A stretch of 64,000 bases of DNA, taken from the NCBI GenBank assembly GCA_020627535.1, contig JAHDGU010000009.1, positions 1-64,000 of the forward strand, written 5' to 3'. Every line of letters begins with the position of its first letter. Positions within the stretch are counted from its first letter, which is position 1. Made by a program: the position numbers and the translations under genes. Shown piece after piece: positions 25,723-33,991 of this stretch. The notes beneath the pieces were generated by a model. The model was not told the origin of the DNA. It searched no databases and saw only the letters and a program-made list of their open reading frames with translations. Source of the DNA: Saprospiraceae bacterium. GTDB taxonomy: Bacteria; Bacteroidota; Bacteroidia; Chitinophagales; Saprospiraceae.

Positions 25723-25750
25723 CTATCTTTCGGATGAATTCAATCAATTG

Positions 25751-26851
25751 ATGAGAAGAAGATACATCGTTGGACTCCTAGGCTTTGCGGTCTTATGCTT
25801 GATCGTGTACTTCTTCGGAGATATTGTGGCCTACGTACTCATCGCGTGGGTACTGAGTCTACTTGGTGCACCCATGGTAGATTTCATGTGCAATAAGCTT
25901 CGCTACAAAAAGTTTCGGATCGGTCGGAGCGTCGCAGCGGTATTGACCATCATCATCATGTTTGGTCTGTTTTACGCTCTGTTGAGGGCTTTTGTACCCT
26001 TGATTCTCGAGCAGTTTGGCAATCTTGCCAGTCTAGATTTCAAGAATATCGGTGTCACGCTTGAGCGTGAGTTCAATATCACGGAGAAGTTGCAGTCGAT
26101 AGGTGTAGACCTCTCTGAAAGGTCGGCCGGAGATCAGATTGCCGAGGCTGCCGCCAAATGGTTTGATCCTAGTAAGATTGGCCAATATCTCGGAGAGGCG
26201 GTAGGCGTCGCAGGTAATATTGTCATTGGCCTGTTCAGCGTCATTTTTGTGCTATTTTTCTTCCTACGAGAGCAAGATCTGTTGATCAACTTTATTCGCT
26301 CCATCATCCCCAATGAGTACGAGGAGCAGGCCGCAGTTGCTATGGACCGTACGGCCAATCTTCTTCGCCGCTATTTCTTTGGAATAGGGTTTCAAGTGAC
26401 CGTGATCACCATTTTGGTCAGTCTAGCACTGAGCCTTTTTGGTGTGCAAAATGCTCTGCTGATTGGATTTTTCGCTGCCTTGATCAATACCATTCCTTAT
26501 CTAGGGCCCATCATCGGTGCCAGTTTTGCAGTATTTGTTACTCTGAGTAGTCATCTGGACTATGACTTCATGACAGAAATGCTTCCGCTCATCTTGAAGA
26601 TTCTAGGAGTGTTTGCAGTCATGCAGATGCTGGACAACTTTATCCTTCAGCCATACATCTTTAGCAATAGTGTGATGGCACACCCGATGGAGATTTTCAT
26701 AGTGATTTTGGTGGGTGGTCGTATTGGAGGTATCGCAGGTATGATATTGGCGATTCCAGCATACACAGTTTTCCGCGTGATAGCTTCTGTGTTTTTGAGT
26801 GAATTCAAGATCGTCCAGAGCTTGACCAACAATCTTAATCAGACAGAGTAG
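25751..26851 (+). CDS. AI-2E family transporter
   Basis: A 366-residue membrane protein with about eight helices and the family layout: two N-terminal hairpins, a soluble domain between about residues 90 and 150, then the conserved G-F-F-A-A-L-I-N-T-I-P-Y-L-G-P-I-I-G stretch and the late P-M-E-I-F-I-V-I-L-V-G-G. Members export small molecules or act as Na+/H+ antiporters; AI-2 transport itself is not general for the family. The ATG at 25751 is preferred over the TTG right before it. A TATCTTTC sequence near 25727 may be its -7 element. Confidence 0.85.
   Translation: MRRRYIVGLLGFAVLCLIVYFFGDIVAYVLIAWVLSLLGAPMVDFMCNKLRYKKFRIGRSVAAVLTIIIMFGLFYALLRAFVPLILEQFGNLASLDFKNIGVTLEREFNITEKLQSIGVDLSERSAGDQIAEAAAKWFDPSKIGQYLGEAVGVAGNIVIGLFSVIFVLFFFLREQDLLINFIRSIIPNEYEEQAAVAMDRTANLLRRYFFGIGFQVTVITILVSLALSLFGVQNALLIGFFAALINTIPYLGPIIGASFAVFVTLSSHLDYDFMTEMLPLILKILGVFAVMQMLDNFILQPYIFSNSVMAHPMEIFIVILVGGRIGGIAGMILAIPAYTVFRVIASVFLSEFKIVQSLTNNLNQTE
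26146..26158 (-). repeat. T-tract mini-hairpin motif
   Basis: Minus strand TTT-GGC-GGCA-GCC, antisense inside the AI-2E transporter gene. The T run is short. Confidence 0.45.
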
Positions 26852-30462: not shown

Positions 30463-30495
30463 AAAGTCTAATGAGCAATTGACTTTTGCCAAAAT

Positions 30496-30548
30496 GAGCT
30501 TCAGTGATTGGCGGTGATGTTAAAATCTCGGCAAGTTCGCTGAAGCTC
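30496..30548 (+). repeat. Long-range 9 bp inverted repeat
   Basis: GAGCTTCAG (30496-30504) and CTGAAGCTC (30540-30548) are perfect complements separated by 35 nt, behind the beta-lactamase-fold gene. No T tract follows directly, so it is not a standard terminator. Confidence 0.35.
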
Positions 30549-30611
30549 CTCTTAAATTAGAGCACTTTCATTTAAAGAAATCCTAGCATTAGGAGTTTCA
30601 TAACGGTCTGA

Positions 30612-30657
30612 TTTGCAGATGTTTGCACCGCGGTCTACCTTGGTCACGAGAGCTCTC
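30612..30657 (+). promoter_or_regulatory. Promoter with operator-like palindrome, lipoprotein A
   Basis: TTTG (30612-30615), a 20 bp spacer and TACCTTGG (30636-30643), then the palindrome GAGAGCTCTC (30648-30657) at the expected transcription start. Spacing and palindrome are repeated before the paralogous gene at 31624. Confidence 0.6.
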
Positions 30658-30688
30658 TACTTTCTGATCACTAAAATATCTAGACCGT

Positions 30689-31372
30689 ATGAAAATCCTC
30701 TACCCTACACTCTGTACCCTAATTCTGGTATTCTTCACTTCTTGCGCGCCCAAAAGGTTTATTGCAAGAGACTTTGAAGAGGAAGCGGCAAAGCATGAGA
30801 CGATTGCTGTACTACCATTCAAAGTAATTTACACTGGCAAGATCCCAGAAGATGCAACAGAAGAAGATCTTGTCCGAGCCAGTGCTATGGAAGGACTGGC
30901 TTATCAATCTTCCTTTCATCATCAACTGCTCCAAGCCAGACCTGCTCGTCGTCGTCGGATGAAGGTCAGAGTCCAAGACTATCGCAGCACCAGAGCTGCA
31001 CTAGACACTCTTGGAATTGGCGTCGCTGAGAGCTGGAAGATGGCCCCAGAGCAGCTGGCCAAGCGACTAGACGTCGACGCTGTGGTCTCTGGAACTATCC
31101 ACACCAAGCGCCTCCTTACGGACAAGCAATCCTTCGGGATTGATGTGGCTCGCAGAGTCATCAATGCTATCCCTACCAATGGTCGCATACCTCGCATAGG
31201 TGGAGCTATTGCTCGCAGTGCCGAACTAGAGATTAGATATAGCCTCATCAGTGAGAACCTTGGTAGTGTGTTGTGGTCATTTTCTTGTCGTGGCGGATCC
31301 AATTGGCAAAGACAGCCGGACGAGACCATCAATTATCTCAATTATCAAGCTGCGAGGAGATTTCCCTATTGA
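30689..31372 (+). CDS. Lipoprotein, tandem paralogue A (TolB-N/CsgG-like fold suspected)
   Basis: A 227-residue protein with a lipobox (F-T-S-C, Cys near residue 19). The mature part opens with E-T-I-A-V-L-P-F-K-V-I-Y-T-G, the strand-turn pattern of TolB-N/CsgG/GNA1162-like lipoproteins. Other marks shared with paralogue B: Q-D-Y-R-S-T-R-A, E-S-W-K-M-A-P-E-Q-L-A, D-A-V-V-S-G-T-I, and S-F-G-I-D-V-A-R-R-V-I-N-A. It most likely sits in the outer membrane facing the periplasm. No named family was recognised with certainty. It has its own promoter, shared in design with the copy downstream. Confidence 0.8.
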   Translation: MKILYPTLCTLILVFFTSCAPKRFIARDFEEEAAKHETIAVLPFKVIYTGKIPEDATEEDLVRASAMEGLAYQSSFHHQLLQARPARRRRMKVRVQDYRSTRAALDTLGIGVAESWKMAPEQLAKRLDVDAVVSGTIHTKRLLTDKQSFGIDVARRVINAIPTNGRIPRIGGAIARSAELEIRYSLISENLGSVLWSFSCRGGSNWQRQPDETINYLNYQAARRFPY

Positions 31373-31382
31373 GCCGAGTTGC

Positions 31383-31397
31383 TTTTTGCCGTCAGGC
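31383..31397 (+). repeat. T-tract mini-hairpin motif, intergenic
   Basis: TTTTT-GCC-GTCA-GGC, 10 bp behind the stop of lipoprotein A. It is one of two clear intergenic copies. The T run precedes the stem on the plus strand, so it is not a rightward terminator. Confidence 0.55.
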
Positions 31398-31540
31398 AGA
31401 TTATCATACAGAGCAGCCTAGCTACGTGCAAGAAGCGCTGTAGCCCACGTTAAGACTTACTGAAGAGCTGCAAAGAGACTCTTAAAATGACCATGATTTT
31501 ATTAATGATTTCTAAGATTTCTTTCTATAGATGTCCCTGA

Positions 31541-31585
31541 TTTGCAGTGTATTGTGTCTAAGGCTATCTTGGTGACAAGAGCTCT
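31541..31585 (+). promoter_or_regulatory. Promoter with operator-like palindrome, lipoprotein B
   Basis: TTTG (31541-31544), a 20 bp spacer, TATCTTGG (31565-31572) and palindrome AGAGCTCT (31578-31585). It is homologous to the promoter at 30612-30657, with the same spacing. Confidence 0.6.
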
Positions 31586-31623
31586 GATAACAAGGATTTC
31601 TTCACCTCCAAAATCGAAATGCC

Positions 31624-32322
31624 ATGAAAACACATTACGCACTTCTATCGACCATTTTGATCGTCGCAATCTTGACCTCTTGTGCTTCCAATCATTACGT
31701 CAGTGAAAGCTTTGATCAAGAGACTGTAGATCACGTTTCTGTTGCCGTGCTGCCATTTGAAGTAGTCTTTATAGGAAACGTGCCAGCGAGGATGACAGAT
31801 CAAGATCTGCTAGATGCCCAGATCGAGGAGGGCTTGACCTACCAAGCGTCTCTTCATCACGAGATCTTACAAAGCTCTGTCTCACGTAGAAAGCCAGTTT
31901 CTGTAGATCTTCAAGACTACAGATCAACACGTGCTCGACTCAAAAAGCATGATATTTCTGTCGAGCAAAGTTGGGAGATGGCGCCCGATGAGCTTGCTCA
32001 GCTTCTGGGAGTGGATGCAGTGGTCGCAGGTTCCGTGCGCACGAGACACCTCTTGACCAATGGACAGTCCTTCGGTATAGACTTGGCTCGTCGTGTGATC
32101 AATGCACTTCCGAGTGACAATGTACCATTTATCGGTTCCGATGCAGCAAATACCGCTGAGATCGTTGTCAGATATGGGATTGTCGATGGAGAAGACGGCA
32201 GCATCCTATGGTCTTTTAGTTGTCCAGCTGAGGCTGATTGGCAGCAGAAGCCCGAAGAAGCAATTGCCAATCTCAATCGTAGAGCAGCGAGAAAATTCCC
32301 CTACAGATATTCCATGAGATAG
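31624..32322 (+). CDS. Lipoprotein, tandem paralogue B
   Basis: A 232-residue protein with a lipobox (L-T-S-C, near residue 20), closely similar in plan to the 30689 protein: S-V-A-V-L-P-F-E-V-V-F near the N-terminus, Q-D-Y-R-S-T-R-A, Q-S-W-E-M-A-P-D-E-L-A, D-A-V-V-A-G-S-V-R-T-R and Q-S-F-G-I-D-L-A-R-R-V-I-N-A. The repeat of both gene and upstream region shows a tandem duplication followed by divergence. It ends one base before the convergent folB stop. Function unknown; two paralogues could form a mixed outer-membrane assembly. Confidence 0.8.
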   Translation: MKTHYALLSTILIVAILTSCASNHYVSESFDQETVDHVSVAVLPFEVVFIGNVPARMTDQDLLDAQIEEGLTYQASLHHEILQSSVSRRKPVSVDLQDYRSTRARLKKHDISVEQSWEMAPDELAQLLGVDAVVAGSVRTRHLLTNGQSFGIDLARRVINALPSDNVPFIGSDAANTAEIVVRYGIVDGEDGSILWSFSCPAEADWQQKPEEAIANLNRRAARKFPYRYSMR

Positions 32323-32809: not shown

Positions 32810-33991
32810 ATGGCTAGAACAGATCAGTACGAAGGGCATGATTACTATGGTGTCGATGCCTTGCTAAGCGAAGATCACCTACTTGCACGTGATGCTGTGA
32901 GAGCTTGGGTGAAGCAAGAAGTATCACCGATCATTGAGGAGTACTCTGAGCGAGCCGAGTGTCCTAAGCAATTGTTCAAGGGACTGGCTGAGATCGGTGC
33001 ATATGGGCCTAGCTTACCTGTAGAATATGGCGGCGGTGGCATGGATGAGATCGCCTATGGTGTCATCATGCAAGAGCTCGAGCGAGGTGACTCTGGAGTG
33101 AGATCAATGGCATCAGTCCAAGGCTCACTCGTGATGTATCCGATCTATCGCTTCGGTAGCGAAGAGCAGAAGCGCAAGTACTTGCCCAAGCTTGGGAGTG
33201 GAGAATTCATCGGTTGCTTTGGCCTCACGGAACCAGATCACGGGTCCAATCCTGGAGGTATGATCACGAGATATGAAGATGATGGTGATCATGTCATCCT
33301 CAATGGTGCCAAACTTTGGATCACCAATAGTCCAGTCGCAGATATTGCCGTCGTCTGGGCCAAGGGACCTGATGGCAAGATCAGAGGTCTCATCGTAGAG
33401 AAGGGTATGAAAGGTTTCACGGCGCCAGAGATCCATGGTAAATGGTCCTTGCGTGCCTCGATCACTGGAGAGCTCGTCTTCGAGGATGTACGAGTTCCTA
33501 AGTCTAACATCCTGCCTGAGGTCGCAGGACTCAAAGGCCCTCTATCTTGTCTTTCCAAAGCGCGCTATGGTATCGCATGGGGAGCTATAGGAGCGGCACT
33601 TGATTGCTATGATTCAGCCCTGAGATATAGCAAGGAGCGGATCCAATTTGACAAGCCGATCGCAGGATTTCAGCTTACGCAAAAAAAGCTAGCCGAGATG
33701 ATTACGGAAATCACAAAAGCTCAGCTCCTAGCGTGGAGACTTGGCACACTAGCCAATGAGGGGAAAGCGAGCCCTGCGCAGATCTCCATGGCCAAGAGAA
33801 ACAATGTACACATGGCACTGGAAATCGCTCGCGAGGCTCGACAGATTCATGGAGGAATGGGAATCACCAATGAGTATCCTGTCATGCGTCACATGATGAA
33901 TCTTGAGACCGTCTTGACCTACGAGGGTACACACGACATCCACCTCTTGATTACAGGAATGGATGTCACAGGAATCAATGCCTTCAAGTAA
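32810..33991 (+). CDS. gcdH: Glutaryl-CoA dehydrogenase-like acyl-CoA dehydrogenase
   Basis: A 393-residue FAD enzyme. It has the acyl-CoA dehydrogenase marks G-C-F-G-L-T-E-P-D-H-G-S-N and W-I-T-N-S-P-x-A-D, the R-x-x-x-x-F-D-K-P-I-A-G-F-Q segment and the catalytic Glu in L-T-Y-E-G-T-H-D-I-H near residue 375. The Y-E-G-T-H-D-I-H form, and the E-Y-G-G-G-G-M-D-E stretch, are typical of the glutaryl-CoA dehydrogenase branch (lysine/tryptophan breakdown to crotonyl-CoA). It stands alone with a good promoter. Other short-chain specificities cannot be excluded by eye. Confidence 0.88.
   Translation: MARTDQYEGHDYYGVDALLSEDHLLARDAVRAWVKQEVSPIIEEYSERAECPKQLFKGLAEIGAYGPSLPVEYGGGGMDEIAYGVIMQELERGDSGVRSMASVQGSLVMYPIYRFGSEEQKRKYLPKLGSGEFIGCFGLTEPDHGSNPGGMITRYEDDGDHVILNGAKLWITNSPVADIAVVWAKGPDGKIRGLIVEKGMKGFTAPEIHGKWSLRASITGELVFEDVRVPKSNILPEVAGLKGPLSCLSKARYGIAWGAIGAALDCYDSALRYSKERIQFDKPIAGFQLTQKKLAEMITEITKAQLLAWRLGTLANEGKASPAQISMAKRNNVHMALEIAREARQIHGGMGITNEYPVMRHMMNLETVLTYEGTHDIHLLITGMDVTGINAFK

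Follow-up and report, generated by a model that had tools for sequence, protein, structure and literature searches.

A tandemly duplicated lipoprotein gene pair in a Saprospiraceae bacterium with a candidate operator resembling that of envelope quality-control genes

In a 64,000-nucleotide stretch of a Saprospiraceae genome (the whole stretch analysed, hereafter the window) we find two adjacent lipoprotein genes that stem from a lineage-specific tandem duplication of a lipoprotein found family-wide, the promoter having been copied along. Judged from the DNA, the candidate operator of this pair resembles the one that stands before envelope-repair genes in the same bacterium and in relatives, and a little-known circuit for envelope stress probably includes the pair. 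About six [CG]TTAA-like half-sites lie on one helix face upstream of each promoter, at offsets 0, 11, 20/21, 32, 52 and 62 (Table 1), and we propose that an OmpR/PhoB-type regulator would bind them. This would most likely be the RprY-like regulator encoded together with an RprX-like kinase at G000:C5, and it would activate its own operon, both lipoprotein genes and two genes for periplasmic quality control, degQ and skp. On the whole we lean, with some reserve, towards this reading, in which the tandem duplication took promoter and array with it and an RprY-like regulator of the OmpR type controls an envelope-quality regulon that includes the pair. If a two-component operon, degQ, skp and a so far uncharacterised family of lipoproteins have one specific DNA site in common, that would supply a testable regulon and a functional context for the lipoproteins.

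Table 1. Positions in the window of the lipoprotein genes and of the elements upstream of them
Feature	Position	Strand	Remarks
Lipoprotein copy 1	30689..31372	+	ORF, 227 aa, lipobox FTSC; predicted PelC/GNA1162/TolB-N-like via homology to copy 2
Lipoprotein copy 2	31624..32322	+	ORF, 232 aa, lipobox LTSC; fold predicted directly
Phased half-site array, copy 1	30519..30585	+	GTTAA 30519, GGCAA 30530, CTGAA 30540, CTTAA 30551, TTTAA 30571, TCCTA 30581
Phased half-site array, copy 2	31449..31515	+	GTTAA 31449, CTGAA 31460, TGCAA 31469, CTTAA 31481, ATTAA 31501, TCTAA 31511
CTGATTTGCAG with -33-type TTTG at 30612	30608..30618	+	11/11 identical to copy 2
CTGATTTGCAG with -33-type TTTG at 31541	31537..31547	+	repeat finder
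-7-type box TACCTTGG	30636..30643	+	one mismatch to TAnnTTTG
-7-type box TATCTTGG	31565..31572	+	copy 2 counterpart of TACCTTGG
AGAGCTCT palindrome, copy 1, near expected transcript start	30649..30656		missing before the single copy of G001
AGAGCTCT palindrome, copy 2, near expected transcript start	31578..31585		sequence match

The two lipoproteins, both encoded inside positions 30463-32322, are 48% identical across 228 aa. An earlier reading made from the sequence only had credited them with long identical blocks; the homology stands, and the blocks reduce to a longest run of about 8 aa (QDYRSTRA in the BLAST alignment). Where the two copies have the same amino acid, 44 of 110 third codon positions agree; at 4-fold sites the agreement is 14/41, with about 26% expected by chance, and synonymous sites are near saturation. 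In the tree the copies are sisters (99/84), and the single copy of a congener, G001, branches next (99/96). That single copy sits between homologs of the permease (25748-26851) and acyl-CoA dehydrogenase (32810-33991) genes of the window, as read directly from its flanks, and the interval between these two genes is larger in the window than in G001. Among the relatives we found none that carries both copies. With the two copies in tandem and homology extending upstream of each, the promoter was duplicated together with the gene. Elsewhere in the same lipoprotein family, G114 shows an independent tandem duplication (L197:3630-5408; tree sisters 100/100), with no phased half-site pairs in either upstream region. 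A third paralog (L015, G000:C1:145994-146617; 30% identity) has a signal-peptide-like start without the lipobox Cys at the usual place.

The family consists of predicted lipoproteins of the outer-membrane type: an N-terminal hydrophobic helix is followed by a lipobox whose Cys20 is present in 41/41 aligned members, the start codons of the relatives having been selected so as to give a lipobox; their placement at the outer membrane is putative. The model of copy 2 (pLDDT 86.9 from 25 sequences; 34 for the single-sequence fold) gives a Foldseek match at E 1.9e-5 and VIA-align Z scores of 12.1 for PelC, 10.9 for FlgT, 10.6 for GNA1162, 9.7 for TolB, 8.7 for CsgG and 8.6 for LpoB, and the predicted structure matches the PelC/GNA1162/TolB-N/CsgG fold class over the main domain. 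The earlier guess of a TolB-N/CsgG-like family is borne out at this level, with matches to the TolB N-terminal domain and to CsgG, and fails at the Pfam CsgG cutoff (PF03783, gathering score 20.8), where copy 2 reaches 11.3 bits, copy 1 has no match and 3 of the 41 members match weakly (best E 0.0094). The GNA1162-like profile (PF05643) matches neither window protein, and matches 5/41 members (best E 0.0044). The profile search that had been suggested thus brought neither lipoprotein to a CsgG or GNA1162 family cutoff, and sequence profiles from Pfam, NCBIfam and PDB gave nothing convincing for either. Several members of the fold class act at the outer membrane, some of them as rings. A common fold gives no function and, unlike the PelC/GNA1162/TolB-N/CsgG/LpoB class, none of the ORFs at the inspected loci was recognisable as a pel, curli or tol neighbour of the family.

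Upstream of the window pair the array is degenerate: per copy only two half-sites are exactly [CG]TTAA, and GTTAA-N6-GTTAA occurs in neither. Both copies have these two, GTTAA and CTTAA, at a distance of exactly 32 bp, and in both the intermediate and downstream half-sites (Table 1) keep to the same face of the helix. The phased pairs were reproduced in 0.72% (copy 1) and 0.56% (copy 2) of 5000 shuffles, and they are the only [CG]TTAA pairs of the phased kind in the 64 kb, with both strands searched. The CTGAAG and CTCTTAAA blocks that had been noticed upstream are present in both copies, and turn out to be two half-sites of this direct-repeat array. From CTTAA to TTTG the distance is 60-61 bp, long yet nearly equal in both copies, with about 30 bp between the end of the array and TTTG. 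The single copy of G001 is preceded by no strict phased pair, only by CTTAA and degenerate half-sites.

We assembled 69 ortholog upstream regions of 300 nt each (70 distinct homologs were read and L013, below the E cutoff, was dropped; matches weaker than about 1e-15 were mostly left out), and those related records that bear a name are mostly Saprospiraceae or Lewinellaceae MAGs. A spacing of 11 bp between [CG]TTAA words is seen in 16 of the 69 upstreams, where 0.4 would be expected and 200 shuffles gave at most 4; the spacing peaks again at 19-22 and 31-32 bp. Pairs at 11, 21, 22 or 32 bp, distances chosen from the ortholog set itself with the window copies included, are present in 26/69 orthologs (24/67 without the window copies) and in 27/75 homologs of the kinase, the regulator and DegQ; the count is 3/235 among other ORFs from the same loci, these controls being ATG ORFs of at least 150 aa that may include spurious ones. 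Since the 69 homologs are phylogenetically non-independent, p values are not to be taken literally, and the phased pair is missing in 43 of them. Direct half-site repeats at a pitch of about 11 bp, the tandem form of OmpR/PhoB-type operators, are thus found in the ortholog set and before degQ, skp and the kinase gene, the window copies having them only as a degenerate array.

Two further observations concern these loci. Homologs with 28-34% identity occur in Acidobacteriota and Aminicenantes MAGs (L093-L103), which is odd for an otherwise Saprospirales-type family; phased pairs were found in 0 of 10 of their upstreams (L093-L095 and L097-L103, two of them shorter than 70 nt). A neighbour gene of about 250 aa is conserved at lipoprotein loci (18 loci in its cluster; divergent at L008, L009, L011 and L040) and has weak sigma-70 region 2 similarity, with a Pfam match for L009 only. 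Clustering of gene neighbours at the lipoprotein loci suggested no function.

The strict repeat GTTAA-N6-GTTAA lies upstream of skp in 11/20 relatives (11/13 of the same family, 0/7 of other families), of degQ at 11/15 loci and of the RprX-like kinase gene at 7/13 loci; one seed per set came from the pattern scan, and without these seeds the counts are 10/19, 10/14 and 6/12. The longer form GTTAA-N6-GTTAAA has 6 sites in the bacterium's own genome vs 3 for the reversed-pattern control. Three of its sites precede degQ, a pair of OmpH/Skp genes and the operon of kinase and regulator. The remaining ones are found inside the kinase ORF, about 390 bp ahead of an ORF that by eye looks recA-like, and before a small exported-looking ORF. 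A loose form of the pattern with variable gaps found nothing in the same genome. From the lipoprotein promoters, CTTGGTNAC recurs upstream of degQ (G000) and of skp (G001), in 2 of 48 regulon upstreams, with a background of 0.004 per 250 nt. We also scanned 150 genomes for three repeats and obtained 30 loci, a lead only, because the reversed control also gave many matches. At six of these loci (L112, L120, L121, L125, L131, L133) the gene concerns the envelope or codes for a kinase or a sigma factor: as we read it, the next ORF encodes a kinase, BamA (twice), HtrA/DegQ, a lytic transglycosylase and an ECF-type sigma factor; L120, L131 and L133 were identified by Pfam, L125 and L112 via homologs in the own genome and L121 by eye. 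We recognised no shared theme among the other 24 loci. Around the regulator itself (L193, G000:C5:103500-112500) a gene for a two-PDZ protein is divergent and an ftsH-like gene convergent, and a GTTAA repeat sits between the RprX-like kinase and PDZ genes.

The product of this regulator gene, which has a kinase gene adjacent, combines an OmpR-type receiver with a Trans_reg_C domain. Its best NCBIfam model is RprY (293.4 bits, E 1e-87; next model 171 bits), and as the RprY equivalog cutoff of 370 bits is not reached we call it RprY-like and do not file it as RprY. The lipoprotein arrays would be assigned to this regulator because half-site, orientation and pitch are similar. They could instead be bound by another regulator of the OmpR/PhoB type whose half-sites are similar, for instance PhoB, which would leave the RprY-like system a bystander. 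The second-best model of the regulator is the Bacteroidota PhoB, showing how close the families are; similar [CG]TTAA arrays stand upstream of the porin L127 (phosphate-porin-like by eye); and the lipoprotein arrays often start with CTTAA, where the degQ, skp and kinase sites use GTTAA. We nevertheless consider this unlikely, as the porins L201 and L202 carry largely TTAAC/TTAAG on the gene strand whereas the lipoprotein, degQ, skp and kinase sites read [CG]TTAA, a comparison that is thin because porin homologs occur in just 4/20 relatives. Taken by themselves, the TTAAC/TTAAG repeats of L127, L201 and L202, mostly opposite to the degQ/skp orientation, are a candidate Bacteroidota Pho box.

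Each lipoprotein copy also has a candidate Bacteroidota-type promoter, TTTG-N20-TAnCTTGG. The homology of the upstream regions, proposed from the sequence, was recovered by a repeat finder (30608-30656 vs 31537-31585, 49 nt, 71% identity), and local alignment of the intergenic regions scores 60 against a mean of 23.9 (sd 4.0, maximum 46) in 2000 dinucleotide shuffles. Common to both regions are CTGATTTGCAG, TTTG-N20-TA, TAnCTTGG and GTnACnAGAGCTCT; GTTAA, CTGAA and CTCTTAAA are shared at a greater distance upstream. Sigma-A promoters of Bacteroidota have a TTTG-type -33 box, and TTTG-N20-TA is exact in both copies with differing spacers, just as had been described. The spacing to TA is 20 bp if counted from TTTG, and 17 bp if counted from where CTGATTTGCAG ends. 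TAnCTTGG is one position off TAnnTTTG, the -7 consensus of Bacteroidota in PMC9723704.

The AGAGCTCT palindrome is likewise present in both promoters, and a dimeric regulator might bind it where transcription of the two genes would start: it is identical at 8/8 positions and lies at the same 41 bp distance from CTGATTTGCAG, against a near-saturated background. The syntenic single copy of G001, however, keeps TATCTTGGTCA and has neither AGAGCTCT nor CTGATTTGCAG upstream, contrary to the idea of a conserved operator. Nor did the search for further palindrome-promoter units yield an intact third one in the genome (6 sites with up to 3 mismatches vs 4 for the reversed control, and at 0 mismatches only the window pair). 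The word occurs 5 times in the 64 kb and is thus by itself not rare. Because it is missing in G001 and a third intact unit is lacking, we do not take AGAGCTCT as the main operator, a role that neither the congener comparison nor the genome scan supports; such a dimeric regulator seems improbable to us, and the palindrome may matter for the two window copies alone. The phased [CG]TTAA array, more widely shared than AGAGCTCT, is the better operator candidate, and as an array it is well supported.

Given tandem copies with homologous upstreams, the shared blocks could also be leftovers of duplication or of short gene conversion with no shared regulation. Yet in the 49-nt promoter block the spacer is identical at 6/17 positions, near chance like the 4-fold sites, and the remainder at 29/32, which argues for selection and not for recent duplication; gene conversion would have homogenised the spacer too. 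We regard leftovers as a highly improbable explanation, and the earlier proposal that selection holds both genes under the same control is upheld by this comparison. The idea that AT-rich intergenic DNA yields the phased TTAA words by chance receives next to no weight from us, for although the ortholog upstreams have 35% GC and TTAA is common there, composition-keeping dinucleotide shuffles fail to yield the spacing, these sequences seldom have spacings outside the helical period, and low-GC control ORFs have 2/97.

Returning to the RprY-like regulator, the system shares with RprX/RprY of Bacteroides and Porphyromonas the adjacent kinase and OmpR-type regulator genes and RprY as the best model. 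It differs in its proposed targets (degQ, skp, the kinase-regulator operon and the lipoproteins) and in the score below the equivalog cutoff. For P. gingivalis, PMC5706477 and PMC3646045 describe a stress-linked RprY regulon with oxidative stress, sodium translocation, iron transport and heat-shock chaperones; the words consensus and motif have no match in the RprY papers PMC6032018 and PMC3646045. At title and abstract level the literature searched describes no RprY motif or such regulon, and it describes no operator for envelope quality-control genes of environmental Bacteroidota.

In Proteobacteria, the Cpx and sigma-E circuits are autoregulated and control genes for an HtrA-type protease and for OMP chaperones, and the same kind of control is what we propose here from sequence. 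Unlike CpxR, the regulator belongs to another subfamily (the CpxR model gives it 118 bits vs a cutoff of 341), and the half-site differs from the CpxR site. We offer only tentatively, and with less confidence than the regulon itself, the broader idea that an autoregulated RprX/RprY-like system is this family's equivalent of Cpx/sigma-E, one that would read 11-bp phased GTTAA repeats and control skp, degQ, its own operon and, as outer-membrane effector, lipoproteins of the PelC/TolB-N fold. If true, the window shows such an effector duplicated, with its operator retained through to synonymous saturation.
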